Source: Strigamia acuminata (Eukaryota; Arthropoda; Chilopoda; Geophilomorpha; Linotaeniidae). From it: a stretch of 64,000 nucleotides of DNA. The notes under the pieces are model-generated. The model made no database searches and was not told the origin of the DNA. It saw only the letters and a list, made by a program, of their open reading frames with translations. The DNA lies in the NCBI GenBank assembly GCA_949358305.1, contig OX442319.1:434001-498000 (forward strand), written 5' to 3'. Position numbers and translations under genes: made by a program. This document shows positions 2,289 to 54,923 of this stretch, in pieces. Numbering within the stretch: the first letter of the stretch is position 1; every line of letters starts with the position of its first letter.

Positions 2289-2290
2289 TA

Positions 2291-2308: not shown

Positions 2309-2403
2309 GACGACGCGGCCAACCGTTTGTGATACGTTTGCGGCAAGTTTCGTGACGAAACGGACATCGCGGATCCTCGCCAGTATCGTCGCAGAGACGT
2401 ATC

Positions 2404-2976: not shown

Positions 2977-2992
2977 ATTCCCTCCTTCGATG
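2977..2992 (-). promoter_or_regulatory. copia-A polypurine tract
   Basis: In element orientation GAAGGAGGGAAT lies directly upstream of the 3' LTR. This is the expected site for plus-strand priming. Confidence 0.7.
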
Positions 2993-3022
2993 TGCAATGT
3001 CGATATTAACAGTTCGATGAAA

Positions 3023-24851: not shown

Positions 24852-27800
24852 AATGGCCACAAAGACGAAATAACAAGAAGAAAAGAAGAAAGAGAAAATT
24901 AGAAATCATCGAGTTACACGCTATGGACGAACTTTTACAGATTCCAGTAGTATTAAATGGTATGGAAATCACTGGTGTCTTGGATTCTGGAGGTTTTCGC
25001 AACATCATTAGTGAAGATTTGGTGAGAACTCTGCAGCTCAAATATCAGCCTTGTCCAGGTGTTCGATTGAGAGTTGTGGATGGCTCATTGATAGTCCCAG
25101 AAGGAAAAACCAGGATTACCATTGATGTTGGACAACAACAACACACCATCGACGTATTGATCGTTAATGGATTTGGACGCCACTTACTACTGGGAGATAA
25201 TTTCTTAAGATCTGCAAAGTGTAAACTCGACTATGACCAACAGAAGATCTTTGTAGGCCCAAAAAATGAACAACAAGAAGTTTTCCCAATGTCAAAGAAT
25301 TATACTGATGTAAATTACATAGCCCGAGTTTTAAAACCAATAACAATTCCAGCATTACATGAATGTGTAGTTCCAATAAAAATTGCAAAGAAAGTAGATG
25401 ATGAACTATTCATAGAACCACTCAGTGGAGTAATTGACCGTTTTGGAGTAATTTGTTGCAAAACATTGACTAAATTCAGAAAAGGTGAAGGAGTTCTGCG
25501 AGTTGCAAATCCAACTAAAAAGACAATCTATTTAGGAAAAAACTCAGCAATTGCAAAGGCCTTTTATGTAATTGAGTCTGGCGTGCTTGATGAAAACAGA
25601 GTTAATCAATTTGACTTTAGCACGGCCATGGCGAATGATAACATGACGCCATCACAACAAGGGCTAATGTTGCGGTTGCTGGAGAAAAATTCGGATAGAT
25701 TTGCGAAGACTGACAATGATTTAGGCAGAGCTCATACGATTAAACATCGAATTGATACTGGAGATTCTCCTCCAATCCATTTACAACCTTATAGACGATC
25801 GATTAAGGAAAAAGAAATCGAGGATGCTGAAACAAAGAAGTTACTTGAGCAAGGAGTCATTAGAGAATCTGAGAGCCCATGGAGTGCACCAGTACTACTC
25901 GTCAAGAAAAGAGACGGCAAATGGAGATTTTGTGTTGATTGGAGACGGTTAAACGCGGTAACAAAGAAAATGGTTTATCCCTTACCACGTATTGATGACA
26001 CCCTAGATCAATTAGCGGGTGCGAAGTATTTTTCAATGATGGATCTTATCCAGGGATATCACCAAGTCGAAATAGACGAACAAGATCGTGAAAAGACAGC
26101 GTTTACCACGTCTAGTGGACATTATGAGTTTAATGTCCTTGGAATGGGATTATGTAACAGCCCGGCCGCCTTTCAAAAATTGATGAATAAAGTACTTGGT
26201 AACCTCCTGGGAAAAGTATGTATTGCATATCTGGACGATTTGATAGTGTTTTCGAAGACTTTCGATCAGCATCTTGTTGATTTGGAGGCAGTTTTCCAAA
26301 AGCTTAGAACAGCGAATCTCAAAGTCAAACTGAGTAAATGTACGTTTGCGACACACACCATACGATATCTCGGACATGTGGTTGATGCTGAAGGTATTTC
26401 ACCGGATCCCAGGAATCTGGATTCAGTAGCTAAGTTTCCAATTCCTGTGAACGTTAAACAACTACGTGGTTTTTTAGGATTATGCTCGTATTACCGGAAA
26501 TTTATTAAAGGTTTTGCGGACATTTCCAAACCTCTGGTGAATTTAACCAAAAAGGATGAAAAGTTTGACTGGGGACCACCCCACGACAAAGCATTCCACA
26601 CGCTCCGAAATGCATTAATAACAGTGCCGGTGTTAGCGCATCCAGATTTTACTCAGCCCTTCATGATTTCATGCGATGCAAGTGCCTATGGATTAGGAGC
26701 TATTTTGAAGCAAAAAGTCAACAATCAAGAGCGTGTTATCGCTTATGCAAGTCGTATGATGAGCACAGCAGAAATGAATTACACTGCAACTGATAGGGAA
26801 ATGTTAGCAATCATTTTTGCTATTGAAAAGTTTAGACCGTACTTATATGGACAGAAATTCCAAATTATTACCGACCATTCTGCCCTCCAATGGCTGAAAG
26901 GAGTCCGAAATCCAAATGGACGTCTAGCCAGGTGGGCGCTGCAATTAGCTGAGTATGATTTTGAAATATTTCATAAAAGCGGCAAGAAACATACAGATGC
27001 CGATGCTTTAAGTAGGATCCAGGAAGAATTAAGTGAAGAAGAAATAGAAAAATTACCTTCGCTTTTCTTAGAAAACTTGGACCTCCCTGTTGAACAGAGG
27101 AAGGATCCCAAATTACTGGACCTCATAACAGCGCTAGAAAACCAAGAGCAACTTCCAAGAAAAAGAAGACGACCACTAAAGCAGTTCGTTCTTCAAAACA
27201 AAACATTGTTCAGGAAGAAAAAACTTAACAGTTCCCTGAACATGGAAGATTTATTACTAGTAGTTCCAAAACAACTTCAAAAAGATGTATTGTATGAAAT
27301 GCACGATGGATTACTAGGAGCTCATTTGGGATTGGCAAAAACGTGGAAACGAATAAGAACACGATTTTTCTGGACAAGAATCTATAAAGATGTTAGAAAT
27401 TACGTCTTGTCCTGCCAACACTGCGCAAAAGCAAAAACAATGACAACGCCAGCTAAAGGATTAATGCAGCCATGGTCAACAGTCTCAAAACCTTTTGAGC
27501 GAATTGGAATAGACACACTTGGACCATTTCCATTGTCACGACTTGGAAATAAACATGTTTTTGTTGTAACTGATTATCTTTCTAGAAATGCAATAGCTAG
27601 ACCAGCAGCAGCAGCTACAGCGTTAGAAGCAGCAAAAACATTGCTTTATGAAGTTATTCTGAAAGAAGGCAGTCCGAGAGAAATCCTAAGCGACCGTGGA
27701 ACGGAATACAGGAACAAAATGGTTGAGGAGGTCTCAAATATGTTTAAAAGTTTGCATAAAACTACGTCAGGATACCATCCAAGAACAAATGGATTAACGG

Positions 27801-28648
27801 AGAGATTTAATGCGACATTCGCAAAAATGTTGCAAAGTTATGTTAATGAAGAACACACTGACTGGGACGAATTTCTTCCATTTCTCCTGTTTTCATATAA
27901 CACGGCCGTTCATGAAACAACAGGATATACACCACACTATTTACTTCGTGGATATGATGTGGATTTGACAGTAGATGTTAATTTGGACTTGCCACAGAAA
28001 GAATATACATTAAGAACAGCAAAATTCATTCGAGCAGCCAGGAAAATTGCAAATGAGAGACTTGAAAAACAATCTGCAAAAAGTAAGAAAAGATTTGATG
28101 AAGACAGAGTCAACAAAGAATTTGAACCAGGTGAATTGGTTTATCTGAAAACCATCAACAGAAAAGTTGGCTTGTCAGAGAAGCTTTTACCGCAATTTTC
28201 CGGCCCGTATGAAATTGTGCGAAGAACTGCACCTAATGACTATGAAATCATCAATTCTACAAGAAAGAAAAGTGACATAGTGAATGTAGAAAGGTTAAAA
28301 CCATATAAGGAACGAATTGAAGAAGAAATAGATGAAGTTCTGAAAGATATGCCAGAAAAGAAAGTGAAATTTGCTGATAAAGTGAAAAAAATCAGTAAAA
28401 AAGGTGAAATTGTAGTTGAAAACACAGAAAAACTAGTGAGAACAACGAAAATTAAGCCAAAAGAACGTTATATAGATGATACAGAACAGATTTCTCTAAA
28501 ATCACTATTTGAACCACAGCCTACGGTGAAAACGAATGAAAATCAACTTCAAAACCCGCCACTAGATGGCGCAAGTCCACAAACCAACGATTTCCGGTCG
28601 CGCAGACTCAGACCGCGTAAGCGAAAAGACTATCGCCATTTCTACTGA
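24842..28648 (+). CDS. gypsy-F Pol polyprotein (protease, reverse transcriptase, RNase H, integrase)
   Basis: The -1 frame is open from the slippery site; its first ATG is at 24923, likely not the true start. Counting from that ATG: aspartic protease with DSGG at about 21-24 and LLLGDNFL near 90; reverse transcriptase with YLDD at about 436-439; RNase H with CDASAYG near 584 and a TDHSALQWL segment; integrase with an HHCC zinc module (HDGLLGAH near 793, CQHC near 831) and the catalytic D, D and E in GIDTLGPF, SDRGTEY and NGLTERFN; then a GPYEIVRR (GPY/F) module near 1093. The tail is basic, then acidic. Uninterrupted, about 90% similar by eye to gypsy-G. The last codons overlap a perfect CTCF-consensus string (28559-28573). 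Confidence 0.94.
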   Translation, partial: GKLEWPQRRNNKKKRRKRKLEIIELHAMDELLQIPVVLNGMEITGVLDSGGFRNIISEDLVRTLQLKYQPCPGVRLRVVDGSLIVPEGKTRITIDVGQQQHTIDVLIVNGFGRHLLLGDNFLRSAKCKLDYDQQKIFVGPKNEQQEVFPMSKNYTDVNYIARVLKPITIPALHECVVPIKIAKKVDDELFIEPLSGVIDRFGVICCKTLTKFRKGEGVLRVANPTKKTIYLGKNSAIAKAFYVIESGVLDENRVNQFDFSTAMANDNMTPSQQGLMLRLLEKNSDRFAKTDNDLGRAHTIKHRIDTGDSPPIHLQPYRRSIKEKEIEDAETKKLLEQGVIRESESPWSAPVLLVKKRDGKWRFCVDWRRLNAVTKKMVYPLPRIDDTLDQLAGAKYFSMMDLIQGYHQVEIDEQDREKTAFTTSSGHYEFNVLGMGLCNSPAAFQKLMNKVLGNLLGKVCIAYLDDLIVFSKTFDQHLVDLEAVFQKLRTANLKVKLSKCTFATHTIRYLGHVVDAEGISPDPRNLDSVAKFPIPVNVKQLRGFLGLCSYYRKFIKGFADISKPLVNLTKKDEKFDWGPPHDKAFHTLRNALITVPVLAHPDFTQPFMISCDASAYGLGAILKQKVNNQERVIAYASRMMSTAEMNYTATDREMLAIIFAIEKFRPYLYGQKFQIITDHSALQWLKGVRNPNGRLARWALQLAEYDFEIFHKSGKKHTDADALSRIQEELSEEEIEKLPSLFLENLDLPVEQRKDPKLLDLITALENQEQLPRKRRRPLKQFVLQNKTLFRKKKLNSSLNMEDLLLVVPKQLQKDVLYEMHDGLLGAHLGLAKTWKRIRTRFFWTRIYKDVRNYVLSCQHCAKAKTMTTPAKGLMQPWSTVSKPFERIGIDTLGPFPLSRLGNKHVFVVTDYLSRNAIARPAAAATALEAAKTLLYEVILKEGSPREILSDRGTEYRNKMVEEVSNMFKSLHKTTSGYHPRTNGLTERFNATFAKMLQSYVNEEHTDWDEFLPFLLFSYNTAVHETTGYTPHYLLRGYDVDLTVDVNLDLPQKEYTLRTAKFIRAARKIANERLEKQSAKSKKRFDEDRVNKEFEPGELVYLKTINRKVGLSEKLLPQFSGPYEIVRRTAPNDYEIINSTRKKSDIVNVERLKPYKERIEEEIDEVLKDMPEKKVKFADKVKKISKKGEIVVENTEKLVRTTKIKPKERYIDDTEQISLKSLFEPQPTVKTNENQLQNPPLDGASPQTNDFRSRRLRPRKRKDYRHFY

Positions 28649-38900: not shown

Positions 38901-39015
38901 CTGGGAAATTTAGCATTCATCACATCCCAGGCGAATCGAATACCGCGGACCTCTTAACCAAATGGTTATCGCGCCCGCGTTTGCGGATGTTGATTGAGAA
39001 TGTCTTTGCTTGAAA
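35907..39015 (+). pseudogene. copia-D pol, main part (integrase, reverse transcriptase, RNase H)
   Basis: Continues the frame of 20896-21602. It has the integrase motifs HMDVW, IRTDNGGEF and NLVAERANR, a proline-rich linker with two imperfect repeats around 'IPGAK', reverse transcriptase with YVDD (near 38058-38069) and RNase H with YTDASYA, MESEFLAI and NKHIDVKYHF, ending TGA 39011-39013. The frame is open throughout. Relative to copia-B and C three or so residues are missing after HMDVW. The gene is called a pseudogene because two other elements split it, not because of point lesions. Confidence 0.88.
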
Positions 39016-39540: not shown

Positions 39541-40689
39541 CTCACCCAACTGCGATTGGAACTCAACACTTTACAGTCTATTTTTCAACAATTAACACCA
39601 AGTAAATCTAATTTAGTAGGATCCACATCAAAAGGAGTGACATCCAAGATGGCGGACCCAACAACAGTTTTGACTGATCTTCTCAAGGGTATTTTGATAC
39701 AAAAGCGCGAAGTTGTTTGTTATGATACAGAAAAAGGTAACATCGACCAATGGCTTGTGGCTTATGAAGCTACAATAGCATCGGATGATGAACGAGTGAA
39801 ACAATTGCCGTTAGCCCTTAAGACTGACGGACTGGCATGGTTTGTGGAACAATATAAAACGAATCCAACTTGGACTTGGAAAGAATGGAAGCCACAAATC
39901 GAAAAGAAGTTCAGGAAAAGCCAGGAAAATGTATTGAACACTCTTCATTTTATGAGGCATACAGAAGGTAAAGCCGATGCGTTTATGAAGAAAGTCTTGG
40001 CCGAATGTGCTTATGCGCGACCAGAACTCCCTGAGAATTTGAAGCTTAACTATGTTTATCAAGGATTGAAGCCCGAAATGCAAAAAATGTTGATTACTGT
40101 ATTCCCGAAAACTTTGGCGGATATGGAAGAAAGAATTAAGTTATTTGAAAGTCATAAGATAAAAGATCCAGCAGATGTTCTACTCGCAATGTTTAAAAAA
40201 GTCGTGGATGAAAAGGTGACCCCGGTAACAGCAGGTAAACTGAGTGGAACTGTGGGGACCCAACCAACCCACGCTGACTTGTTAGCTGAAGTTGCTGATT
40301 TAAAACAGCGATTATTGGAAGCTGAGTCAGTGGATTTGCTGGATGAAGAATCGATATTGATACAAAATCAGTGGTATGCGCCAATAAGGAATAGGGGACA
40401 GTATAATCAAGGAGGTAGAAGTAGAGGTGGTAGACAAGGCTTTAATCCTAATTATAATAATTATAATACTAACAATAACAACAATTCTAATAACCGTTCA
40501 TGCGGATGTTATCATCATTTCAGCTGTGAGTTTTATAATCCACCCAGGCAACAACAACAGCAACAACAGCAACAGGATAGAGGTGGAAGTAACAGCTGGA
40601 AGTGGAATAAAAAGAGAAGAAGAGGTGAAAATCCAAGTGGAAACCCTAATCCTCAGGCGCAGACGAAGGACCAAAATTCGAAAAACTAG
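39541..40689 (+). pseudogene. gypsy-U Gag (5' truncated by copia-D)
   Basis: The frame is open from the copia-D junction to TAG 40687-40689. The first ATG is at 39649 (MADPTTVL...), aligned with the MANAS start in gypsy-F and G. The capsid-like core is diverged but clear (IDQWLVAYEATI, RVKQLPLALK, YARPELPE). The C-terminus is N- and Q-rich with a compact Cys/His cluster (CGCYHHFSC), unlike F and G, which have none. The string before the stop is G_AAA_AAC, a weaker version of the F/G slippery site. From ATG 39649 the gag is 346 codons without a break. Confidence 0.82.
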
Positions 40690-41938
40690 TTGGACGGCCA
40701 CAAAGAAATTGTTGCCACCCAAAGAAAAGGCAAAGACAAAAGAAGAACAGTAAGATAGTTATAGTTGACGTTCAGGTATCAGAGTCATTGTTGGAAATCC
40801 CAGTAATTGTAAGAGAAATGGAAATAAAAGCAGTAATGGACACTGGAGCCAAACGAAACCTTTTAAGTGAAGAAGTGGCAATAGCCCTTCAATTGGATTA
40901 TTTACCGAGCCCTAACATTAGGCTACGTGGGATAGGAAAGGATTTGGTGGTTCCAGTAGGTAAAACAAAAATGAACATTGCAATTGGAAAACTGACCTAT
41001 AGAGTGGAAGTGTTAATAGTGTCAGGATTTCATCATCAGCTTTTATTGGGGGATCCATTCATGAGGTCAACAAAAACTGTCGTCGATTATGATTTACAAA
41101 AAATCTTTGTGGGCCGGAACAATGATAGTGGAGTAGAAGAAGCAGTTTTTCCAATGAATAAATCTTTTTCGGACCAGAGTTATGTCGCCAGGGTGATGAA
41201 GAACATTTCAATTCCACCAATGCATGAATGTGTTATACCAGTTTATTTGAATACAAAATTAACTACAGCAATGTTTATGGAACCTCTAGGAAATGTAATA
41301 GATAGGTTTGGAATTTTGTGTTGTAAAACATTAACAAATTTTGAGTATGGTAAAGGAGTTCTGCGTGTGGCTAATCCAACAAACAAATCAGTCTTCTTGA
41401 AGGAGAAATCTGCAATTGGTAAGGCGTATTACATTATCGAAATTGGGTTGTTAGATGAAAAGCAAGTGCATTGCATTGACTCCTCAACCAAAGCGGTTGA
41501 GTTGTCAGATGAAAAGCAAGTGCATTGCTTTGACTTTGACTCCTCAATTGCTAAAGATAAGATGACCAAAAGCCAACAAGAGCAGATGAAGCAGTTACTT
41601 CAAAAGAATCAAGATAGATTTGCAGCCACAGACAAAGACTTAGGTAGAGTAACATCATTTAAACACAGAATTAATACGGGGGACCATGATCCAATACATT
41701 TGCAGCCTTATAGACGTTCAATGGCGGAAAAAGAAGTAGAGGCAGAAGAGACCAGAAAGTTGCTTGAGATGGGAGTCATCAGGGAATCGGAAAGCCCATG
41801 GAGTGCGCCAGTACTTCTCATCAAGAAAAGAGACGATAAATGGAAGTTTTGTGTCGATTGGAGGAGGTTGAACGCGATCACAAAGAAAATGGTATACCCA
41901 CTGCCCAGAATTGACAATAATTGGACCAACTGGCAGGG
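40680..41938 (+). pseudogene. gypsy-U Pol, N-terminal part (protease and start of reverse transcriptase)
   Basis: The -1 frame relative to gag, open from 40680. It carries the protease (MDTGAKRN near 40838, LLLGDPFM) and the N-terminal fingers of reverse transcriptase through YPLPRID. A one-base loss near 41923 shifts the frame just before gypsy-G begins. The linker contains an in-frame 54-bp duplication (41454 and 41508). The rest of the gene resumes at 49856. Confidence 0.85.
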
Positions 41939-41968
41939 GCCTCAAGTGGGCCTAAATCCCACATAACA
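41939..41968 (+). repeat. gypsy-G 5' LTR remnant
   Basis: 30 bp identical to the last 30 bp of the 3' LTR (GCCTCAAGTGG...CACATAACA), joined directly to gypsy-U pol. Confidence 0.9.
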
Positions 41969-41971
41969 AAG

Positions 41972-41986
41972 TGGTGGAGATTGCGG
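41972..41986 (+). promoter_or_regulatory. gypsy-G putative primer-binding site
   Basis: TGGTGGAGATTGCGG, one base different from gypsy-F and at the same distance from the LTR end. Confidence 0.6.
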
Positions 41987-42977
41987 TTTCCCCAAACACT
42001 GCCCCAAAATTAAAATAGAAAAACTCAAATTTGAAAATTTAATAAAAAATAGTCAAAATTTGTGAAAATTCATTAAAAATTTGCAAAATTAGGTTAAGAA
42101 ATCAAAATCTAGAGTTGAAAAACTCAAAAATTGGCAAAATTAGAGTTAAAATTGGTGAAAATTAGCTTTAAAATTGATTGAAAATCTTATAAAATTTAGA
42201 AAGAGCCCAACCTAATTTGAATATGCATGACTCACTGCAAGAAATGATAGGAAAGATAAGAGTGACTCATTGTAAATAGAGTCAATTAGAGTTAATGAAG
42301 TTAAAAGTAGAAAAGCTAAATAAAGCAATTGAATATTTAATTGGATGACTTTACAGTTGGTGTTGTTTGATTTAATGATTGAATGAAATTTGAATTTGTG
42401 AATTGTTTATGATGAAATTGTTTATTTGATAAAGAATTTATTCATGGTGTTTTTGATAAAATTGAGAATTAATAGAGAGAAATTACCTGAATTTGCTAAT
42501 GAATAGTTTTGAATTTCAGAATATTTTGTAAATTGTTCATTGATAAAGTGTTTTGATGGAATTGAATATTAATAAGATATATTGTTCAGATTTATTAGTG
42601 AATTTGTTTCTTTTTCGGGGGATTTTGTAAAGAATTACTAATAAAGAGTTTTCTTGAATATTTACTAATGAAAATTTTGACAATTTTGAAAAATGACCGT
42701 GAAAATTTGATTGTTTTGATATTTTGAATTATATAAAGATAATGACTATGAAAATTGAATTGTTTTGAAGTGGATTGTTTGATAATTGATTGTTTTTCAG
42801 GATATTTTGTTGAATATTTACTGATAGTTATTTAGTGTTTTTTATAAATGACCGTGAAAATTGAATTGTTTAATTATTGAATTTGTTTCAGAAAGTGAAA
42901 GTGTTTTGTGAAAAGTGTTTATCAATAAAAAGGAATTGCTTCGACCCAAAGGATTGTGTCTTCTCTACATTTAATAA
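41987..42977 (+). other. gypsy-G AT-rich leader
   Basis: Aligns in composition and in repeated words (ATGACCGTGAAAAT, GAATTGTTTTGA) with the gypsy-F leader. It carries 3' splice-site-like strings (TTTTTCAG near 42793-42800, TTTGTTTCAG near 42882-42891). No ORF. Confidence 0.5.
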
Positions 42978-44483
42978 ATCATTGCGGACTCTAGACGTTA
43001 CGCGTTTTCAAAATACGTAACGGATTACCTGCTCTCAGGTGTTAAGAAAGAAGAGGAGTTGGAAGAAGAGACAGCATTGAGCGTCAAGGTGACTGAGCGA
43101 AAGAGGAAGCCAAAACCCAAAGAGGAACTTAAAACTCAAAAAAGGGAAGGTGAAACCCCGCAACAGCACCTTATACGAGTTGTTAGTGCTGATCTTCAAG
43201 CTGAATTGTTTCCACACGAGGTGGAGCAATTAGGAGAACTATTGATACGGGAACAGAGTGATCTAGACGACGCAGACGAGAAGGACATTTTCCAAGACGT
43301 TGAGGAGCAACCAAATTTAGAACTTTCATATTTGTGTATTAATAAAGAACAATCTCCAATTAAGATGGCTAATGCTTCGCCATCACCAGAAATGTTGGCA
43401 ATACAAACAGTATTACAAAATTTAGTGGTTAATAGAAGAAATCCAGTTGATTTTGATCCAGCCACTGGAAATATCGACACATGGTTAATTGGATACGAAG
43501 ATACGATTGCCGATGATACTGAAAGAATTAAACATCTGTCAATTGTGCTGAAACATTCTGCATCATCGTGGTATTTAGACCAACTTCCATTACATCCGAC
43601 TAGAACTTGGACTGAATGGAAAGATGCGTTGAAAACAAAATTTCGACGACAAATAACAGCAATTTTGGCGAAATTACAAGCAATGCAGCACAAGGACGGA
43701 ACAGCTTTGGAACACATGCAGAAAATATTAAAGGAATGCTCTTATGCAAGACCGTCGTTCACGGAAGATCAAAAGATATTTCACGTGTTTCAAGGACTGA
43801 AGAAGGTGATCAGAGATAAATTAGTAGCCAATTACCCAAAGACGTTGGACCAATTAACATCACAACTTGGATTGTTGGAAGCCCACGCATTCAATGAGGA
43901 TCCTGCAGAAGTTTTACTAACCCTACTGCAAAAAGCTGTTGATACAACAGGTGAGGTGACACCGAGTTGCTTGGTAGAACCGAGCGACGTCAATAAAACA
44001 AAAGACGAGTTGTTAGCAGAGGTCAAAGTGCTAAGACAACAGCAGCAGTTTGGGGACGTTCAATATGCAGAGGTCACTCCAGTCTTCTACCAAAATCAAT
44101 GGTATACGCCACATCCAAACCAGGCCCAGTTCTATAATAGAGGAAACTTTAGAGGGCGACCTGGACAACAACGTGGATGGTGGAATAACAACAGTAATTG
44201 GAACCAAGGTAGAGGATGGAACAATAATAAAGGTCAAAACAGAGGCAATTGGAATAATCAGTGGAATAATTCTGGCCAAGGATTCCAACAACAACAACAG
44301 CCACAACAGCAATGGAATCCACCGCAACAACAACAACAAGGTCAAAGACAGGGGAATCCAAATAACCAAGGTCACCCACGAAATCCAAACTATAAAGGTA
44401 AAAATTTCATTGAAAATTACCAAGGAGGCCGAGGTCAACGAGGAGCCCCACATGGTGGACCAGCTAATCAATCGGGAAACTAG
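42978..44483 (+). CDS. gypsy-G Gag
   Basis: The frame opens at 42978 after an in-frame TAA and ends with TAG 44481-44483. The first ATG is at 43365 (MANASPSPEM...). The preceding 129 codons have no ATG but match gypsy-F at the protein level (RRYAFSKYVTDYL against KRYNFSQVVTDYL). The capsid core is almost the same as in gypsy-F. The C-terminus is RG-, N- and Q-rich with GRGW and QQQW runs and no zinc knuckle. The stop directly follows GGGAAAC. Confidence 0.85.
   Translation: MIADSRRYAFSKYVTDYLLSGVKKEEELEEETALSVKVTERKRKPKPKEELKTQKREGETPQQHLIRVVSADLQAELFPHEVEQLGELLIREQSDLDDADEKDIFQDVEEQPNLELSYLCINKEQSPIKMANASPSPEMLAIQTVLQNLVVNRRNPVDFDPATGNIDTWLIGYEDTIADDTERIKHLSIVLKHSASSWYLDQLPLHPTRTWTEWKDALKTKFRRQITAILAKLQAMQHKDGTALEHMQKILKECSYARPSFTEDQKIFHVFQGLKKVIRDKLVANYPKTLDQLTSQLGLLEAHAFNEDPAEVLLTLLQKAVDTTGEVTPSCLVEPSDVNKTKDELLAEVKVLRQQQQFGDVQYAEVTPVFYQNQWYTPHPNQAQFYNRGNFRGRPGQQRGWWNNNSNWNQGRGWNNNKGQNRGNWNNQWNNSGQGFQQQQQPQQQWNPPQQQQQGQRQGNPNNQGHPRNPNYKGKNFIENYQGGRGQRGAPHGGPANQSGN
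44474..44480 (+). promoter_or_regulatory. gypsy-G -1 ribosomal frameshift site
   Basis: G_GGA_AAC followed at once by the gag TAG; pol is in the -1 frame. There is no ATG at the start of the pol frame here (the first possible in-frame near-cognate is TTG 44546), which supports frameshifting instead of separate initiation. Confidence 0.82.
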
Positions 44484-47400
44484 AATGGCCACAAAGACGG
44501 AAAAACAAGAAGAAATTCAAAAAGAAAAAATTAGAAATCATTGAGTTGAACGCCACAGATGAACTTTTGCAGATTCCAGTAGTAGTGAATGGTTTGGAAG
44601 TCACTGGTGTCTTGGATTCCGGAGGTTATCGCAACATCATTAATGAAGATTTGGTAAGAACTCTGCAGCTCAAATACCAACCATGTCCACATGTTCGACT
44701 TAGAGTTGTAGATGGTTCATTGATAACCCCAGGAGGAAAAACCAAGATTACCATTGACGTTGGACAACAACAACATACTATTGAAGTGCTGATTGTCAGC
44801 GGATTTGGCAACCATTTACTGCTAGGAGATAATTTTTTGAGATCTGCAAGGTGCCAGCTCGACTATGACCAACAGAAGATCTTTGTAGGGCCAAAAGATA
44901 AACAACAAGAAGTTTTCCCAATGTCAAAGAATTACACTGAACAAAACTATATTGCGCGAGTTTTAAAACCAATAACGATACCAGCTTTACATGAATGTGT
45001 AGTACCAATAAAGATAGCAAAGAAAGTTGATGACGAATTGTTTGTAGAACCATTGAGTGGAGTAATCGATCGATTTGGCGTGATTTGTTGCAAGACATTG
45101 ACTAAATTCAGAAAAGGTGAAGGAGTTCTGCGTGTTGCGAATCCAACTAAAAAGACAATCTATTTAGGAAAAAACTCAGCAGTTGCAAAAGCATTTTACG
45201 TGATTGAGTCTGGCTTGTTAGATGAAAAAAGAGCTGATCAATTTGACTTTAGCAAGGCCATGGCAAATGAGAATATGACACCAACTCAACAGGAATTGAT
45301 GCGACAGCTGCTAGAGAAGAATTCGGATAGATTTGCAACATCTGACAGTGACTTAGGCAGAGCACAGGCAATAAAACATCGTATTGATACAGGAGACTCT
45401 CCTCCAATCCACTTGCAACCTTATAGACGATCCATTAAGGAAAAAGAAATCGAGGAGGCTGAAACAAAGAAGTTACTTGAACAAGGAGTAATTAGAGAAT
45501 CCGAGAGCCCATGGAGTGCACCAGTACTACTCATTAAGAAAAGAGACGGCAGATGGAGATTTTGCGTTGATTGGAGACGTTTAAACGCAGTAACGAAGAA
45601 AATGGTTTATCCCTTACCACGTATCGACGACACCCTAGATCAACTAGCGGGTGCGAAGTATTTTTCGATGATGGATCTCATTCAGGGATACCACCAAGTC
45701 GAAATAGACGAACAAGATCGTGAAAAGACAGCGTTCACGACGTCAAGCGGACATTATGAGTTTAATGTCCTCGGAATGGGATTATGTAACAGCCCAGCCG
45801 CCTTTCAAAAATTGATGAATAAAGTGCTTGGGAACCTCTTGGGAAAGGTATGCATAGCGTACCTCGATGATTTAATAATATTCTCGAAGACATTCGAACA
45901 GCACCTCGTGGATGTGGACGAAGTTTTTCAAAAGCTCAGAACGGCAAACCTGAAAGTTAAGTTGAGCAAATGTACGTTTGCTACCGACACCATTCGATAC
46001 TTAGGACATGTGGTTGATGCTGATGGAGTTTCACCAGATCCCAGGAACCTGGAAGCAGTCGCGAAGTTTCCACTTCCTGTGAACGTTAAACAACTACGTG
46101 GTTTTTTAGGACTCTGCTCTTATTACCGAAAGTTCATCAAGGGATTTGCAGATATTTCTAAACCTCTGGTGAATCTCACTAAAAAGGACGAGAAGTTTGA
46201 CTGGGGTCCGCCCCATGATACAGCTTTTATCACACTCCGAAATGCATTAATAACAGTACCGGTGTTGGCGCATCCAGACTTTGCACAGCCATTCATAGTA
46301 TCAACCGACGCAAGTGCGTATGGAATGGGAGCCATTCTGAAGCAAAAGATCAACAACCAGGAGCGAGTTGTAGCGTATGCAAGCAAACTGATGAGCACAG
46401 CGGAACAAAACTACACCGCCACTGAAAGAGAGTGTCTCGCTATAATGTTTGCAGTACAGAAATTCAGACCTTACTTGTACGGACAGAAATTCCAAATAAT
46501 AACCGACCACCAACCCCTCCAATGGCTGAAGTCAGTCCGAAACCCCAATGGACGTTTAGCCAGATGGGCATTGCAATTAGTAGACTTTGATTTCGATATA
46601 GTGTATAAAAGCGGCAAAAAGCACACAGATGCCGATGCACTAAGTAGGATACCAGACCAGATGAGTGAAGAAGAAATAGAAAAATTACCTTCGCTTTTCT
46701 TGGAAAATTTGGACCTCCCTGCACAACAGAGGATGGATCCCAAACTACTGGACCTAATTACAGCAGTTGAAAACCTAGAGCAACTTCCAAAGAAGAGGAG
46801 ACGACCGCTTAAGCAGTACGTGCTCCACGAGAAAACGTTATTTAGGAAAAAAAACTCTTCAAGTTCCCTAAATACAGAAGGATTATTGCTAGTAGTTCCG
46901 AAACAACTCCAGAAGGATGTATTGCATGAAATGCACGACGGATTACTAGGAGCTCACTTAGGTTTGGCAAAAACATGGAAACGAATAAGAACAAGATTCT
47001 TTTGGACAAGAATTTACACTGACGTTAGAAAATACGTCTTGTCCTGCCAAAACTGCGCAAAAGCAAAGTCGATGACAACTCCAGCTAAAGGACTAATGCA
47101 ACCGTGGTCAACCGTCTCAAAACCATTCGAGCGGATTGGAATGGACACACTTGGACCTTTCCCATTGTCAAAACTAGGAAATAAACACGTTTTCGTTGTG
47201 ACTGATTATTTGTCAAGATCTGTGATTGCAAGAGCTGCACCAGTAGGAACAGCTCTAGAAGCAGCAAAGACTTTGGTTTATGAAGTGATTCTTAAGGAAG
47301 GCAGCCCAAGAGAAATTTTAAGCGACCGTGGAACGGAATACAGGAACCAAATGATTGAAGAAGTATCTAATCTATTCAAAAGTTTGCATAAAACCACCTC

Positions 47401-48304
47401 AGGATACCACCCAAGGACCAATGGATTAACAGAAAGATTTAATGCGACATTCGCAAAAATGTTGCAAAGTTATGTTAATGATGATCACACCGATTGGGAT
47501 GAGTTCCTGCCATTTGTCCTGTTTTCCTACAACACGGGAGTTCATGAAACAACAGGTTACACACCGCACTATCTTCTTCGAGGATATGATGTGGATTTGA
47601 CAATAGATGTTAACCTAAATCTGCCCCAAAAAGAGTTCACGTTACGCACATCAAAATTCATGCAACAGGCTAGGAAAATTGCAAATGAACGACTTCAAAA
47701 GCAGTCAGAGAAAAGTAAGAAAAGATTCGACAAAGATAGAGTCAACAAAGAATTTGAACCAGGTGAATTGGTTTATTTGAAGACCATAAATAGAAAAGTT
47801 GGCCTGTCAGAGAAGCTTTTACCTCAATTTTCCGGCCCCTACGAGATTGTGCGACGAACAGCTCCAAATGACTATGAAATTATTAATTCCACACGAAAGA
47901 AAAGTGATATTGTTAACGTAGAAAGGTTGAAACCGTATAAAGCAAGAATTGAAGAAGACATAGATGAAGCTTTGAAAGAAATGCCAGAGAAGAAAGTGAA
48001 ATTTGCTGAAAAAGTGAAGAAAATCAGTAAAAAAGGAGAAATTGTAGTTGAAGAACTGGATAAACCAAAGCAAACCAAAGCAAACCAAAGCAAAGCAAAA
48101 GAACGTTACATCGATGATAGTGAACAAATTTCCCTCAAATCATTGTTTGAACCGCAAACAGAACCCGAAAACACTGAAAAACAACTTAAAAATCCGCCAC
48201 TAGATGGCGCGAATACGCAAAACGACGACTATCGTTCGCGCAAGCTCAGACCGAAGGCGAGAAAATCCTACCGCCATTGCTACTCTACATTTTCGCCAAG
48301 GTGA
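44474..48304 (+). CDS. gypsy-G Pol polyprotein
   Basis: Open from the slippery site to TGA 48302-48304. Same order as gypsy-F: protease (DSGGYRN), reverse transcriptase (YLDD near 45858), RNase H (TDASAYG, TDHQPLQWL), integrase with HHCC module and D, D, E in GMDTLGPF, SDRGTEY and NGLTERFN, GPY/F module. Near the C-terminus the DNA has a short ACCAAAGCAA tandem (about 48063-48095), giving a K/Q-rich stretch. A perfect CTCF-consensus string occurs at 48197-48210, as in gypsy-F. No lesion visible. Confidence 0.93.
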   Translation, partial: GKLEWPQRRKNKKKFKKKKLEIIELNATDELLQIPVVVNGLEVTGVLDSGGYRNIINEDLVRTLQLKYQPCPHVRLRVVDGSLITPGGKTKITIDVGQQQHTIEVLIVSGFGNHLLLGDNFLRSARCQLDYDQQKIFVGPKDKQQEVFPMSKNYTEQNYIARVLKPITIPALHECVVPIKIAKKVDDELFVEPLSGVIDRFGVICCKTLTKFRKGEGVLRVANPTKKTIYLGKNSAVAKAFYVIESGLLDEKRADQFDFSKAMANENMTPTQQELMRQLLEKNSDRFATSDSDLGRAQAIKHRIDTGDSPPIHLQPYRRSIKEKEIEEAETKKLLEQGVIRESESPWSAPVLLIKKRDGRWRFCVDWRRLNAVTKKMVYPLPRIDDTLDQLAGAKYFSMMDLIQGYHQVEIDEQDREKTAFTTSSGHYEFNVLGMGLCNSPAAFQKLMNKVLGNLLGKVCIAYLDDLIIFSKTFEQHLVDVDEVFQKLRTANLKVKLSKCTFATDTIRYLGHVVDADGVSPDPRNLEAVAKFPLPVNVKQLRGFLGLCSYYRKFIKGFADISKPLVNLTKKDEKFDWGPPHDTAFITLRNALITVPVLAHPDFAQPFIVSTDASAYGMGAILKQKINNQERVVAYASKLMSTAEQNYTATERECLAIMFAVQKFRPYLYGQKFQIITDHQPLQWLKSVRNPNGRLARWALQLVDFDFDIVYKSGKKHTDADALSRIPDQMSEEEIEKLPSLFLENLDLPAQQRMDPKLLDLITAVENLEQLPKKRRRPLKQYVLHEKTLFRKKNSSSSLNTEGLLLVVPKQLQKDVLHEMHDGLLGAHLGLAKTWKRIRTRFFWTRIYTDVRKYVLSCQNCAKAKSMTTPAKGLMQPWSTVSKPFERIGMDTLGPFPLSKLGNKHVFVVTDYLSRSVIARAAPVGTALEAAKTLVYEVILKEGSPREILSDRGTEYRNQMIEEVSNLFKSLHKTTSGYHPRTNGLTERFNATFAKMLQSYVNDDHTDWDEFLPFVLFSYNTGVHETTGYTPHYLLRGYDVDLTIDVNLNLPQKEFTLRTSKFMQQARKIANERLQKQSEKSKKRFDKDRVNKEFEPGELVYLKTINRKVGLSEKLLPQFSGPYEIVRRTAPNDYEIINSTRKKSDIVNVERLKPYKARIEEDIDEALKEMPEKKVKFAEKVKKISKKGEIVVEELDKPKQTKANQSKAKERYIDDSEQISLKSLFEPQTEPENTEKQLKNPPLDGANTQNDDYRSRKLRPKARKSYRHCYSTFSPR

Positions 48305-49265
48305 ATGCGAGCTTCTTGCGTGAACCAAAGCTTAAATTTTGATATTTATTTGTTGTGTCGTGAATTGAATTGTGTTTTTTGAGGTTTGTGAACATATTTT
48401 AAGTGTTTTAGTATGATTTTGAGTTGAAATATTAGGTTAAAAGTGTATAAAATGCCAAACTTCGCGAAACGAAACAAATCGCGATCTTCGCTTATTCGTG
48501 TTGATAATTTTCTTAGACTTTGGATTAATTCTAATGAATAGGAAAATATGTTAGAAATGTTATTTTACATAGTATTAGCAGATAAAAATTGGTTTTAGTG
48601 AGATTAAAATTTTTAATAATGTTGAACTTGATGACACGAAAATCCGAGGTCGCGAGGCGAAGTAATTAAAGCGAATTTAGTGAAGTTTATCGTAATTTGA
48701 ATAAAACTGATTATGTGAATTGTAAATAAATTTTCAAACACAAAAATTTTGTAAATGTTCTAGGATTTAGAGAGTTGATGTTTTAGAAGAGAATTCAAAT
48801 TTTTAAAGAAAATAATGAAAACCAAAAACAAATTTATTTTTTGAAAAGAGTTAAATTATTTTATGAGAATTTATTGTGAAATTTAAATGTTGTATTTTAT
48901 TTCTGAAGGTTTATTGTAAAAATGGATGAAATAATTTGGTTAATTATAATTCGAACCAATTTGAATTGTTTAATTAGTGTTTAATTTTCATTCTTATTTG
49001 AGTTTTGAATTTAAGTTTTGTAAGTTTTTCTTGAATAGTAAGTTAAGTTGGAAATTATGATTGTATAATTTATGAAGTAATATGACCAATATGAGAAATA
49101 TTGTATTTGAAACAGATTAAGATTTTTCTTTTGTATGTACATTAATCTAAAAGGGAGTAAAAAGAGATGTAAATTGTTTTATTTGACACTATGAATTGAG
49201 ATCTAATATTTGGTAAAAAAGAATTGTCTTCATCCGAAATTTAATTTTAGAGACCAAAATTACGC
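48305..49265 (+). other. gypsy-G 3' untranslated region with spaced GC-rich motifs
   Basis: AT-rich, no ORF. GC-rich islands near 48303, 48465 and 48650 resemble those of gypsy-F in order and spacing; the middle one (CGCGAAACGAAACAAATCGC) is nearly identical. Confidence 0.6.
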
Positions 49266-49277
49266 AAAAAAGGGAGT
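49266..49277 (+). promoter_or_regulatory. gypsy-G polypurine tract
   Basis: AAAAAAGGGAGT abuts the 3' LTR; same string as in gypsy-F. Confidence 0.8.
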
Positions 49278-49855
49278 TGCTACGCGTACAGGCCGTCCCG
49301 ATCAACGGACGACCCGTATCGCGTAATTCGGCTATAATTCGGATAAAAGTTGCTAAATTTCGTCCATAGATGGCGTTGGCAATCGATTACATCATTGCCT
49401 CGTCACTGGACTTATCAATTAGTTAAAGGGGGTAACAGGAGCTTTCCTGTGAAGTGAATCCGCCCAAGTTTGACAGTTCTCTTCCGGCTCTCACTTGAGA
49501 GTGAACTCAAATCCCTCCTATCCAATGTCAGCCTGTTCTTGGCTGGCTGCAGAAATTGTTATTAATTTAATCACTATTTAATAGTTTCAGATTGCATCTC
49601 AATTCAGAGTGTCACTTATGATTTATAATTAGAGTTTATATAATTTATATAATTTATGTAGTTCATTATTTGAGTTTAAGAATTGTGCCAATGTAAACAG
49701 AGTAAACTCATCCATTTGAAAGAATAATCAAACAGCTTTGCTGTCTGGTTAAATAAAAACTAGATTGAATTTAAACCTAATTAAAATGACTCTTTATTTC
49801 CTATCAAATCCCAGTTGTGTGGGTAGCCTCAAGTGGGCCTAAATCCCACATAACA
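49278..49855 (+). repeat. gypsy-G 3' LTR
   Basis: 578 bp, TGCTACGCG...CACATAACA. It contains CATAGATGGCGTT at the position of the gypsy-F CAGATGGCGCT word. Right flank starts GTAT, then gypsy-U pol resumes. Confidence 0.93.
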
Positions 49856-52633
49856 GTATTTTTCGATGATGGATCTTATTCAAGGATACTTCCAAGTCGA
49901 GATAGATGAACAAGATCGTGAAAAAACAGCGTTTACCACTTCAAGCGGACATTTTGAGTTCAATGTCCTCGGACAAGGACTATGTAATAGCCCAGCAGCG
50001 TTTCAAAAATTGATGAATAAGGTGCTTGGTAATCTTCTTGGTAAGGTCTGTATAGCTTATATTGATGACCTTATAATATTTTCGAAGACATTTGATCAGC
50101 ATCTTCAGGATCTCGATGCTGTCTTCAGCAAGCTGCGTTTGGCGAACTTGAAGGTTAAACTCAGCAAATGTACGTTTGGTACTAATACCATCAAATATTT
50201 AGGCCATATTGTAGATTCTGATGAAGTGTCACCTGATCCACGTAATTTAGAAAGTGTTGCTAAATTTCCAAAACCAACAAATTTGAAGCAGTTGAGAGGT
50301 TTTTTGGGTTTATGTTCGTATTATCGTAAGTTCATTCCAGGATTTGCGGACGTATCCAAGCCCTTAGCCAACTTAACTCGCAAAGATGAAGCTTTTGATT
50401 GGGGACCACCACAGGAAACAGCTTTTAAGCCCTTACGAACAGCTTTAGTTACGGTACCAGTATTGGCACATCCGAATTTCGCAGAGCCATTCATTGTGTC
50501 TACGGATGCAAGCGCTTATGGACTCGGTGCAATTCTGAAGCAGCGTATTAACAAGCAAGAACATGTGATTTGTTACGCTAGTCGATTATTAAGTACAGCG
50601 GAACAGAACTATAATGCCACCGAAAGAGAATGTTTGGCCATAATATTCGGCATTAACAAGTTCAGACCATATCTTTACAGTAAGAAATTTACAATCGTGA
50701 CAGACCATTCAGCTTTACAATGGTTGAAAAGCGTGAAGAATCCCAACAGAAGATTGGCCAGGTGGAGTTTACAACTGGTAGACTACGACTACGATGTGAT
50801 GCATAAGTCAGGCAAGAAGCACACAGATGCAGATGCTCTTAGCCGAATCCAAGAAGAGAGTGGTGAGGAAGAAAAATAAATTATTCCCTTATTACTTCTC
50901 GAGAAACTCAACTTACCTGTCGAACAGCGTAAGGACGAGAAATCATCACCGCAATGGAGAATATTGAGCAACTTCCAAGGAACAGGAAACGTCCTTTAAA
51001 ACAGTTCGTTATTCTGGATAACATTTTGTTTAGAAAGAAAAATTATAATTCTCTAAACATGGAAGGAAACCTTTTAGTAGTACCGCAGCATTTACGTAAG
51101 CAAGTGTTAGAAGAAATGCATGACATACTCGTAGGTGCTCATCTCGGCCTAAATAAGACGTGGAAAAGGATTAGAGTAAGATTCTTTTGGCCGAGGATAT
51201 ATAGGGACGTAAGGAATTACGTACTCTCTTGTCCACATTGCGCAGGAAGTAAGTCAATGACCACTCCACAAAAAGGTTTAATGCAACCTTGGTCGACGAT
51301 TTCAAGACCGTTCGAGAGGATTGGTATAGACACGTTAGGAAGCTTTCCAGTTTCAAATAGTGGAAATAAATTTGTTTTTGTCATAACTGATTATTTGTCG
51401 CGTGCAGTCATCGCTAGAGCGGCTCCAGCATGTACAGCGTTGGAAGCAGCAAAAACTCTTGTGTACGAGGTAATGTTGAAAGAGGGAAGTCCACGCGAAA
51501 TACTCAGCGATAAGGGGACAGAATACAGGAATGAAATGATTAATGAAGTATCAGCATTGTTCAAATCCCAGCACAAATCTACTTCCGGGTACCATCCAAG
51601 GACCAACGGATTAACGGAAAGATTTAATGCAATGTTTGCTAAAATGTTGACATGTTACACTAATAAAGATCACACAGATTGGGATGAATTTTTACCATTT
51701 GTCATTTTCTCCTATAATTCTGCAGTCCATGAAACAACTGGATATACCCCATATTATTTGTTGAAAGGTTATGAAGTTGATTTGAGTGTGGACGTGAACT
51801 TGAACCTTCCTCAAAAGGAATTCACTCTTCGCACTTCTAAATTCATGCGGGAGATGCGGAAAATTGCCAACGAAAGATTAGAATGGCAGAGTGAGAAAAG
51901 CAAGAGAAGATTTGATTTGGACAGAATTGTAGTGGAATTCGAACCAGGAGAATTGGTTTACTTGAAAACCCCAAATAGGAAAGTAGGGTTAAGCGAGAAA
52001 CTCCTGCCACCATTTTCTGGACCATACGAAATAGTTAGACGCACAGCACCAAACGATTATCAAGTAAGGAATTCATCAGGAAAGAAATCTAGCATTGTCA
52101 ACGTGGAACGTTTAAAACCATATAAACCACGAGAGGAAATTCCAGAAACTATTCTGCAGGATTTACCATCAAAGAAAGTAACATTTTCAGATCAAGTGCA
52201 GGAAAATTCGCAAAAAGACAATCAAAATGCGGAGATTGTGAAGGAAGTCGATGATTCGCAAGCAAAGTTGAAATTAGGTGCAAAGGAAAGATTTATTACT
52301 GACGAGGACCAGATATCATTGAAATCACTCTTTGAATCTGAAGACAAAACGTCGGATTTCCCGGTTCTAACTGAAAGGGAGCGATTGAAGGCACTCTACG
52401 GGCCGAAAGAAATCGAGGAACGACGAGTAAAAGAGGAAGACAGGAAAAACAAACAAAATCGGTTGCTAAAATCGTCGCCAGTCGAAGACAAGAAGAATCA
52501 GTCGCAGAAACCACCACCAGGTGTCGCAAGCGCTGTATTACCCAACGTGCATGCGCATCCACCTGTTGAAAGTGATTTCCGGTCACGCCGACTTAGATCG
52601 CAACCACGGCAAGATTACACTGCATTTTACTAG
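49856..52633 (+). pseudogene. gypsy-U Pol, C-terminal part (reverse transcriptase, RNase H, integrase), broken
   Basis: Resumes the reverse transcriptase exactly where 41938 stopped, through YIDD (near 50058), RNase H (TDASAYG, TDHSALQWL) and the integrase (HDILVGAH, CPHC, GIDTLGSF, SDKGTEY, NGLTERFN, GPYEIVRR). Lesions: in-frame TAA at 50877-50879 and a small deletion with frame change near 50940, between RNase H and integrase. From 50954 the integrase frame is open for 560 codons. The C-terminal tail is longer than in F and G and rich in K, E and Q. Confidence 0.88.
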
Positions 52634-53139
52634 CTTTTCCTCGAGCGAACGCAAGCTATTTGCAGTGAGCGAAGGGAATTGTTATTCTTCGGGGTGTGAT
52701 TGACGAGGATTTCGTATATTTTTGGTGAAAGTAGGTACTTTTAATTGACGGAAATTGAAATGAACGTAGGCGAGACGTGATGTGATTTTGAAGTTGTATT
52801 TTCTTGTTTTTCGAGGCGAACGCAAGTTATTTGCAGTGAACCGAGAATAACTCGAATCTATTTGATTATTTGGACAATTTTGAGACAATTTTCTACAGTT
52901 TTTGATGATATGAATAAAAGCGCCGAAAGTGAACAAAACGAAACGAATCTATCGCCATTTCCTCAGCAAATGGAGTGGACTTCGCACATTTTTTCGAAAT
53001 GTTAACTTAGTATTTAATTTTGAAATTTAATAGAAATAGCTTTGAATTTGGATAAGTTGATTGTATACATGAATTATATTGGTCATTTAATGAATTCTAA
53101 TTTATGAATTTAATTTATTTTTGCACATAATAGACTTGA
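52634..53139 (+). other. gypsy-U spacer between pol and the Ulp1-like ORF
   Basis: AT-rich with three GC-rich islands: GCGAACGCAAGCTATTTGCA near 52645, GCGAACGCAAGTTATTTGCA near 52816 and ACGAAACGAATCTATCGCCA near 52937. It ends with a 3' splice-site-like string (TTATTTTTGCACATAATAG, to 53133), 6 bp before the ORF start. Confidence 0.55.
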
Positions 53140-53946
53140 ATGGACGACATGACGGGAAAATTTAGTAGGATGGACGTGAAAGATAGTTCGGATGAAGACG
53201 ACAATATTTCCGTGTGTTCGGGAGTTTCGACCCAGCTATTTGATTTATATGACAGGAAATCGGAGTTGGAGCACTTGGACGTTTTGGCGGAAGAGAAGGA
53301 CATTGCGACTATTGAAATCAAGCCTATGTCAGATGATCCATCCATAATAATAACCAACCATGAAATGGCGTCTCTTGGACACCTTGCGCCAGGTAAAAGG
53401 GCTTGGGTTCATCCAAGTGTCATTGACCACTATTTGCGGATGCTCGCGAAATCGAACAAACGCGTGTGGGCGGTCAGATTTGACTTCGTTGAGATGATCC
53501 TGGACCCAGATCGGTTTCCAGACGCGAGGAGATGGATGCGAAAAACCCACGACCATTATGGGAAGTCAATTTGGATTTTTCCAATACCGGAAATCGAACA
53601 CTGGCAATTGTTCGTGGTCGATTGGACCAAGTTTCCGACGCAGGTAACATCGTATGACCCGAGTGGGGTCCTGACGTTTAGCTGCCCTGCGTGGGAGCGA
53701 GTCCACAACTGTATCATCGGAGCTGGAATGGTTTTTCCACGGGGCTATGAGAAGTGGGACCCGCCCCGCATGCAACAGCTTGACGGCGATAGCTGCGGGC
53801 CCACTATCTTGTATTTTGCACGGAGATATATCGAAGACAGGGATAACATGCGCCACGGTCATCCCATCGATTTGCGCCAGCGTATAGTGTATGAGATCTT
53901 ACACGAGAAATTAATCCCATTCGAAAAGGAGGAAAATCAGCCTTAA
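53140..53946 (+). CDS. Ulp1/SENP-like (C48) cysteine protease ORF of gypsy-U
   Basis: 268 residues, intact, start fixed by an in-frame TGA directly before ATG 53140. The N-terminal 60 residues are acidic and serine-rich. The C-terminal half has the Ulp1/adenain-type layout: His154 in EHWQLFVVD, an acidic partner Asp173 in YDPSG, the oxyanion Gln213 and Cys219 in QLDGDSCGP, with the Gln-to-Cys spacing of six seen in SUMO proteases. The usual N and D of QxNGxDCG are D and S here, a variant I associate with transposon-borne members. Predicted to cleave SUMO or another Ubl, or the element's own polyprotein. It lies 506 bp after pol and 487 bp before the 3' LTR, in the env position, and is markedly less AT-rich than its surroundings. 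A host gene caught between element parts is the alternative; no second LTR or exon structure supports that. Confidence 0.85.
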   Translation: MDDMTGKFSRMDVKDSSDEDDNISVCSGVSTQLFDLYDRKSELEHLDVLAEEKDIATIEIKPMSDDPSIIITNHEMASLGHLAPGKRAWVHPSVIDHYLRMLAKSNKRVWAVRFDFVEMILDPDRFPDARRWMRKTHDHYGKSIWIFPIPEIEHWQLFVVDWTKFPTQVTSYDPSGVLTFSCPAWERVHNCIIGAGMVFPRGYEKWDPPRMQQLDGDSCGPTILYFARRYIEDRDNMRHGHPIDLRQRIVYEILHEKLIPFEKEENQP

Positions 53947-54419
53947 TCAGACATTAAGTGTTGTGTGTATATTATTTTTTTTGTGTATTATTTGTTTTCA
54001 TTATTTTGTCAATGATGTGAGCCCAGGTGTACTGGAGCGAGCAGAGACGTATTTTTCATTAATTGACTTTGATTTTTTTTTCTCTCATTTTTATTTGATT
54101 TTGTTATTATTTTCATTTTCATTCACATTGAATGTAATGTACATTATTTCTTTAAACCATTTAGTTTGTATAGAAAATTAGAAAACGGTAAACAAAAAAA
54201 ATTAATATAAGCATGTAAAAATACCAAAAAGTGTTGATTTTGAAAGTGTATTTTGTAATACTTGAAACGATATTCTGAATTTCAGAGTGTAAATTTGTTT
54301 TAATTTATCTTTAATTTGAAGTGTATATTATTGTAAATGAGCATGGATAACACATCCCAAGAGAATGAATAACACGTATTTGACCAGATTTATTTTATTG
54401 TTTTTGGGGTCCAAAAAGC
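53947..54419 (+). other. gypsy-U 3' untranslated region
   Basis: AT-rich, T-run-rich DNA between the Ulp1-like ORF and the polypurine tract. No ORF or clear motif. Confidence 0.5.
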
Positions 54420-54431
54420 TAAAGGAGGGGG
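54420..54431 (+). promoter_or_regulatory. gypsy-U polypurine tract
   Basis: TAAAGGAGGGGG lies 1 nt before the 3' LTR. Confidence 0.7.
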
Positions 54432-54432
54432 C

Positions 54433-54923
54433 TGTTACGCGGTTGGCGAGCACACTGTAAGCCAGTTGTCGCCACCACGTTTCCGTACTTATTTGATTTG
54501 AATTAACTCATTAAATTCTCAATAGAGTTCGCCTTAAGCGAATGAGGTAATTAGTTTACCTATCAATCATTAATAGAACAGCCCAAACCTATTTAAGTCT
54601 GGGTTTGACTTAGAGATGACACAGAGCTTGTCAGGCAGTTATTGCCGTGGCATCTCAAGGTTTTGATGTGATTGTTTTCAGTGTTATTCATGCTCATAGT
54701 CTAAGTTAGTTTTAAGTTAGTCTTAAGTTGATTTTCATTTGAAATTGCTTTATGTTTTATAACTGAATAAATATATTTTATATAATTTAAACATAATCAA
54801 TGAGTCCTTCGTATTTACACCCCAAGTCAAGTAGTTTAATAAATGCAATTAGTCTTTGATTAGACTTAGTCCCAAATTAAGTTATTTACGTGGTCAAACA
54901 GTAGTCAGTCTGGCCACGTAACA
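54433..54923 (+). repeat. gypsy-U 3' LTR
   Basis: 491 bp with perfect terminal inverted repeat TGTTACG/CGTAACA, the same termini pattern as gypsy-F. AATAAATATA occurs near 54765. The right flank starts GTATT. Confidence 0.85.

Follow-up and report, generated by a model that had tools for sequence, protein, structure and literature searches.

Ty3/gypsy elements of the centipede Strigamia acuminata carry a third open reading frame (ORF3) for a predicted SENP/Ulp1-type (C48) cysteine protease, and this architecture is genuine, conserved and abundant in the genome. ORF3 was analysed starting from a 64,000-nucleotide stretch of contig OX442319.1 (positions 434,001 to 498,000, hereafter the window). 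The best explanation for ORF3, to which we assign a probability of roughly one half, is that its product would be a diffusible SENP-like deSUMOylase relaxing the SUMO-dependent silencing exerted by the host.

The window ORF3 runs from an ATG to a TAA and encodes 268 amino acids (Table 1). The catalytic residues proposed by an earlier sequence-only reading, His154, Asp173, Gln213 and Cys219, are all found at these positions, and the protein matched the Peptidase_C48 model with 22.3 bits (E 1.3e-4), slightly above the cut-off of 20.7. The best solved relative is SENP1, which was matched by residues 68-259 (E 7e-9, phmmer against PDB). The claimed location was likewise confirmed, with the integrase ORF upstream and a polypurine tract and the 3' LTR downstream. 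The integrase ORF scored over the Pfam cut-off for Integrase_H2C2 and under it for rve. Given the base composition of the non-coding DNA that flanks L039 (28% GC), a complete relative in the same genome, an open frame of 268 codons would arise by chance with a probability of approximately 5e-12; the GC content of the window ORF3 is 48%. Compared to the 453-codon form, 185 codons are missing, lost in frame after residue 62. The dN/dS ratio of the window ORF3 to its relative in L016 is 0.048 (268 codons).

Table 1. Ty3/gypsy features of the window (positions within the 64,000 nucleotides).
Feature	Position	Strand	Evidence or remark
Sibling Ty3 element, gag and pol	23406..28648	+	
5' part of the ORF3-bearing copy (gag, start of pol)	39621..41941	+	blastn to L039, 94% over 2322 bp
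Nested material inside the ORF3-bearing copy, including a second Ty3 element	41942..49853	.	
Second (nested) Ty3 element	gag 43059-44483, pol 44546-48304		
pol, reverse transcriptase and RNase H part, same copy as ORF3	49854..50879	+	
End of pol, integrase (H2C2 zinc finger, rve core, C-terminal domain), same copy as ORF3	50954..52633	+	
ORF3, SENP/Ulp1-like (C48) cysteine protease, 268 aa	53140..53946	+	Pfam, phmmer; internally deleted relative of a protein of ~453 aa
Junction of the in-frame 185-codon deletion in ORF3	53313..53324	+	region exists in full-length copies
Polypurine tract, directly 5' of the 3' LTR	54421..54432	+	motif also in L065-L068 and L073
3' LTR, 491 bp, TGTTACG...CGTAACA	54433..54923	+	

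The window copy corresponds to positions 1456-9492 of L039 and is present in two pieces (39621-41941 and 49854-54923), the ends of which are contiguous in L039. It is a relic: 5'-truncated, with 5' LTR and leader absent, split at 41941/49854 by the second Ty3 element, and internally deleted in ORF3. Because of this damage it is a poor witness alone, and the argument is built on the other copies in the genome. Neither in the nested Ty3 element nor 3' of the sibling element at 23406..28648 was an ORF3 detected. On the pol of the nested sibling, Pfam domains were found in the order PR-RT-RH-IN, including an aspartic protease domain. At its C-terminus, the Gag of this sibling contains many Gly, Arg, Asn and Gln residues. 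The 3' LTR of the window copy is followed by GTAT, and a family of direct repeats with a spacing of mostly 21 bp is located just downstream of the element (56120-56497). Furthermore, several long frames in the window (3023-8017, 10954-14850, 15300-19042, 30343-34866 and 35909-39013) resemble Ty1/copia polyproteins by eye.

In the genome of S. acuminata, at least 144 matches to ORF3 were found, at least 116 of them without internal stop; these counts are lower bounds, as 143 of 405 candidates were scored. When matches less than 3 kb apart are merged, at least about 141 places remain. Full-length ORF3 frames comprise mostly about 450-480 codons and contain no introns. For 68 of the 144 matches, an integrase in the same orientation lies no more than 4 kb upstream, as judged against the best 150 of 3596 integrase candidates, and ORF3 was found downstream in 68 of these 150. 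Since this list holds the integrases closest to that of the window, distant subfamilies are missed on the integrase side. C13, presumed to be the Y chromosome (10.34 Mb, ~4% of the assembly), holds 39 of the at least 144 matches, which suggests an accumulation of ORF3 on this chromosome.

Five ten-kb regions around ORF3 (L039 to L043) were read. Three of them, L039, L041 and L043, harbor complete elements with open gag, pol and ORF3 and with LTR pairs that are 100% identical (519, 494 and 545 bp, respectively). Together with the domain order on the sibling pol, the LTR pairs and open frames of these three place the elements in Ty3/gypsy. In L042, gag, pol and ORF3 are also open and the visible LTR bases are identical (242 of 242, the 5' LTR being cut by the edge of the region), while L040 has an open ORF3 behind a disrupted upstream part. 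ORF3 thus recurs, as an intronless frame, at the same place (the env position) in copies with two LTRs, and the genome copies support the proposal that the third ORF of a Ty3/gypsy element encodes a C48 protease. This recurrence argues against a one-off capture of a host gene; a single capture is ruled out by the at least 144 matches, the intronless full-length frames and the integrase upstream of 68 of the 144.

The printed flanks contain 4-bp target-site duplications, ATAT in L039, L041 and L043 and GTAT in the ORF3-less copies L086 and L087. All five complete copies thus have an RTAT duplication, which suggests a target preference. Directly after the 5' LTR of L039, L041 and L043, a putative primer-binding site was found, TGGTGGAGATGCGG or a sequence near it. 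A CCHC zinc knuckle is absent from the Gag of L039, L041, L042 and L043 (four families tested).

A profile built from 13 aligned ORF3 proteins was compared with the PDB. It matched SENP1 (2.2e-12), SENP5 (1.1e-7), SENP2 (2.9e-7) and Ulp1 (2e-5), and furthermore SENP3 and XopD. All 16 matches at E ≤0.01 were SENP, Ulp1 or XopD; none was adenain (C5), and an adenain-like identity was rejected. Singly, only 2 of the 13 proteins reached the Pfam C48 model at E 0.01, with 22.3 bits as the best score. In the alignment, the upstream Trp, His-Trp, Asp, Gln and Cys-Gly of SENP1 have conserved counterparts in ORF3. The two Trp that correspond to the di-Gly tunnel of SENP1 are invariant in all 13 aligned proteins. 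Judged by its sequence, ORF3 belongs to the C48 family, with a significant family match and the order His-Asp-Gln-Cys. SUMO as the modifier is not distinguishable at this level from ubiquitin or another one; the protease may act on SUMO or a related Gly-Gly modifier.

The C-terminal ~205 amino acids of ORF3 form the SENP-type protease domain, and the N-terminal ~245 are Lys/Arg-rich and conserved. For the N-terminal part, neither a Pfam match (13 proteins scanned) nor a PDB match (L016 tried) was obtained. An envelope glycoprotein as in errantiviruses was not found, C48 being the one Pfam domain detected in ORF3. When the ORF3 profile was compared with SENP1 and with 20 C48 loci from the same genome, it scored 52 bits for SENP1 and at most 29 bits for the genome loci; as the exons of host SENP are split, this comparison does not single out a donor. 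With the window ORF and the 13-sequence alignment as queries, no homologue was found elsewhere at E 1e-3 in a collection of 5.8 billion proteins (including nr and UniRef), nor was any found in viral contigs; since the protein searches require shared five-residue words, relatives of ORF3 may nevertheless exist.

For an assessment of conservation, 54 loci (L010-L063) were examined, of which 41 have frames of at least 400 amino acids when counted from the start assigned to them (37 distinct frames, 415-480 aa); five loci without a frame and eight with shorter frames were excluded. The Asp, Gln and Cys as well as the Trp after the His are each conserved in 41 of 41 full-length copies, the His in 39 and the Gly after the Cys in 40. 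Six hand-picked pairs of the window's subfamily gave whole-ORF dN/dS values of 0.03-0.07, with 0.02-0.08 for each domain. In the likewise hand-picked pair L045/L063 of another subfamily, values of 0.10 (whole ORF), 0.15 (C48 domain) and 0.07 (N-terminal domain) were obtained; in comparisons across subfamilies, dS is saturated or nearly so. ORF3 is under strongly purifying selection, and both domains are constrained. With the L039 flanks as reference composition, a frame of 453 codons would be open by chance with a probability of about 9e-20. Across L039, L041, L042 and L043, pol is 62-74% identical and ORF3 32-42%, and the two most similar elements are the same for pol and ORF3.

A few copies have lost the catalytic His. 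It is replaced by Ser in L047 and L052, which have long open frames, and by Arg in L048 (394 aa, not among the 41). These long-frame copies, together with the conserved Lys/Arg-rich N-terminal domain, which is under similar constraint, would fit a pseudo-protease that binds SUMO, DNA or RNA and for which catalysis is dispensable. Such a function is nevertheless highly improbable, since retention of the His in 39 and of Asp, Gln and Cys in all 41 full-length copies would hardly be expected if catalysis were idle.

Copies without ORF3 are common. For 82 of the best 150 of 3596 integrase copies, no listed ORF3 match was located within 4 kb downstream. Among these 150, a listed ORF3 is missing in 24 of 42 copies of the window's subfamily (≥92% identity), in 2 of 34 of the group whose pol frames comprise 1273-1327 codons, in all nine with a pol frame of 1310, in all eight with one of 1276 or 1278, and in 39 of the 57 remaining. 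Of nine ORF3-less copies that were read, six (L065, L066, L068, L069, L071 and L072) retain a 3' fragment of ORF3; no trace of it was seen in L067, L070 and L073, nor in the two siblings in the window. Alignment to ORF3-bearing relatives identified L067 and L073 as deletions spanning the whole ORF3. With six remnants and two deletions relative to ORF3-bearing elements, the absence of ORF3 is secondary in these eight copies. The sequence-only reading had named copies lacking the ORF as evidence against it, and on this point the outcome is mixed: copies without a listed ORF3 make up more than half of the 150 compared, but in eight of the nine read (the other being L070) ORF3 had been present and was lost.

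The deletion breakpoints are shared by L065 and L066 and by L067 and L073, and differ in each of L068, L069, L071 and L072. ORF3 has been deleted repeatedly in sibling copies. An origin from spliced cDNA, by loss of an intron, was rejected for the five junctions compared (L065-L068 and L073), which were read as lacking GT...AG ends. In two further ORF3-less copies read over their whole length, L086 and L087, the gag and pol frames are open and the LTRs of each pair are identical (507 and 519 bp); ORF3 is therefore not needed in cis for recent insertion. The product of ORF3 may act in trans, or it may be dispensable in the short term and not needed for every transposition. Repeated loss, continued mobility of the copies that lost it and strong constraint on retained ORF3 fit a product shared in trans, and also a function that is not always needed. 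ORF3-plus and ORF3-minus siblings in one genome offer a built-in comparison for action in cis or trans and for cheating among transposons.

Adenain-type viral proteases mature virion proteins, and by this likeness ORF3 could be a second polyprotein protease for Gag-Pol. We consider this the least probable of the functions discussed here: an aspartic protease domain is kept in pol (sibling element), a conserved Gly-Gly is lacking in the alignments of both Gag (539 columns) and Pol (1386 columns) of four ORF3-bearing families, the profile gave no adenain match in the PDB at E 0.01, and copies with open gag-pol insert without ORF3. The suggestion of the sequence-only reading that ORF3 processes the proteins of the element itself is disfavoured by the aspartic protease, the missing Gly-Gly and the recent ORF3-less copies.

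A related but less improbable view is that ORF3 is an active deSUMOylase mainly for the element's own proteins or for import and integration complexes (e.g. Gag or integrase carrying SUMO), so that assembly, entry into the nucleus or integration would be eased. Four subfamilies whose pol sequences have diverged all retain ORF3 alongside gag and pol, and an active role of Ulp1 and OTU domains in Ginger1 transposition is proposed by Bao et al. (PMC2836005). The recent insertion of L086 and L087 with open gag-pol but no ORF3 speaks against this function, which must at least be suppliable in trans, and we regard it as unlikely. Even more doubtful is an action on DNA-repair or checkpoint factors of the host after integration. 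This was suggested for the Ulp1 domains of Ginger1 (Bao et al. 2010, PMC2836005) and would agree with the presence of C48 domains in elements as different as MULEs, Ginger1 and the ORF3-bearing Ty3/gypsy elements. That suggestion was, however, made for cut-and-paste elements, which leave a break at the donor site, whereas retrotransposons do not.

For the preferred reading, a deSUMOylase that relaxes host silencing, the following course is conceivable. ORF3 would be made from its own, possibly spliced, mRNA, and the basic N-terminal part may take the protein to the nucleus. The C48 domain would strip SUMO or a related Gly-Gly modifier. Acting in trans, it could lower the SUMOylation of host transposon repressors, so that silencing would relax and transcription of the element would be relieved, and deletion derivatives would profit from the product of full copies. 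A hint at a splice acceptor is an AG within the last 14 nucleotides before the ATG in 33 of 34 ORF3 copies; when random pieces were taken from these stretches instead (500 draws), 9 had an AG on average and 12 at most. The 34 were selected from the 41 by a length of at least 440 amino acids and a start of M followed by D, E or N, and their 25 distinct upstream stretches are in many cases related. A splice donor common to the elements was not found, and splicing of the ORF3 mRNA therefore stays conjectural.

Support from other organisms comes from two studies. In yeast with mislocalised Ulp1 (delta-N-ulp1), Ty1 RNA was increased 3.5-fold and retrotransposition 89-fold, and the rise in Ty1 RNA, cDNA and retrotransposition was put down by the authors to decreased SUMOylation (PMC8585004). 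In Drosophila, transcriptional silencing is supported by the SUMO attached to Panx, and endogenous deSUMOylases take this SUMO off (PMC13195609). Deconjugation of silencing factors by ORF3, as the sequence-only reading had proposed, is plausible. SUMO is used by animal germlines to silence transposons (Panx in Drosophila), and a SUMO protease borne by a retrotransposon would be, if the reading is true, a direct counter-defence. Tentatively, the elements could represent the first described LTR-retrotransposon lineage with its own SUMO protease as a counter-defence in trans, shadowed by recurrent ORF3-deleted "cheaters" that would amplify on the protease of full copies.

The sequence-only reading knew of no established case in a metazoan Ty3/gypsy element, and this is consistent with a literature search of open full texts, titles and the beginnings of abstracts. 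No LTR retrotransposon with a C48 ORF was evident from the titles and beginnings of abstracts of the open-access papers listed, most subscription journals and Repbase lying beyond its reach, and in their accessible text PMC6338049, PMC6431247, PMC8220671, PMC11645255, PMC2582038 and PMC6264045 do not report such an element.

Two other types of C48-encoding frames were encountered in the genome of S. acuminata. L006 encodes a Mutator-like transposase together with C48 and PHD domains; its C48 domain scored 48.7 bits in Pfam, compared to 22.3 for the best ORF3, and it was not among the ten listed matches to the ORF3 profile. Mutator-like loci of this kind (L006-L008) occur at six places with equal score and frame length, the domains having been read in L006. 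In L088 (C1:22247000-22253600), an open frame of 1828 amino acids (594-6077) encodes a PHD finger and C48, with a second place of the same length and score; neither a transposase nor a reverse transcriptase was recognised in it by Pfam at E 0.01.

The nearest precedents for the ORF3 element are the Ginger1 and MULE DNA transposons. Mutator-like elements carrying Ulp1/C48 are known, and MULEs share with the ORF3 element a transposon-borne C48 domain but are DNA transposons. According to PMC2836005, Ginger1 combines, like the ORF3 element, a gypsy-type integrase and an Ulp1 (C48) protease in animal genomes, is mobilised by cut-and-paste, is bounded by TIRs and contains Ulp1 as the C-terminal part of its transposase. 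The ORF3 element, in contrast, has LTRs, gag, PR, RT and RH and encodes the protease in a separate ORF. Among host SUMO proteases, SENP1/SENP2 and yeast Ulp1 resemble ORF3 in the catalytic domain by profile, whereas ORF3 is intronless and transposon-borne and has an N-terminal domain without Pfam or PDB match in the proteins tried. An additional non-env protein of an LTR retrotransposon is also present in Cer1 of C. elegans; there, CERV is a regulatory RNA-export protein made from a spliced mRNA, as described in PMC10309623, whereas a protease is predicted for ORF3. Besides Ginger1 and Mutator-like DNA transposons, from which C48 proteases are known, a retrotransposon has also acquired one.
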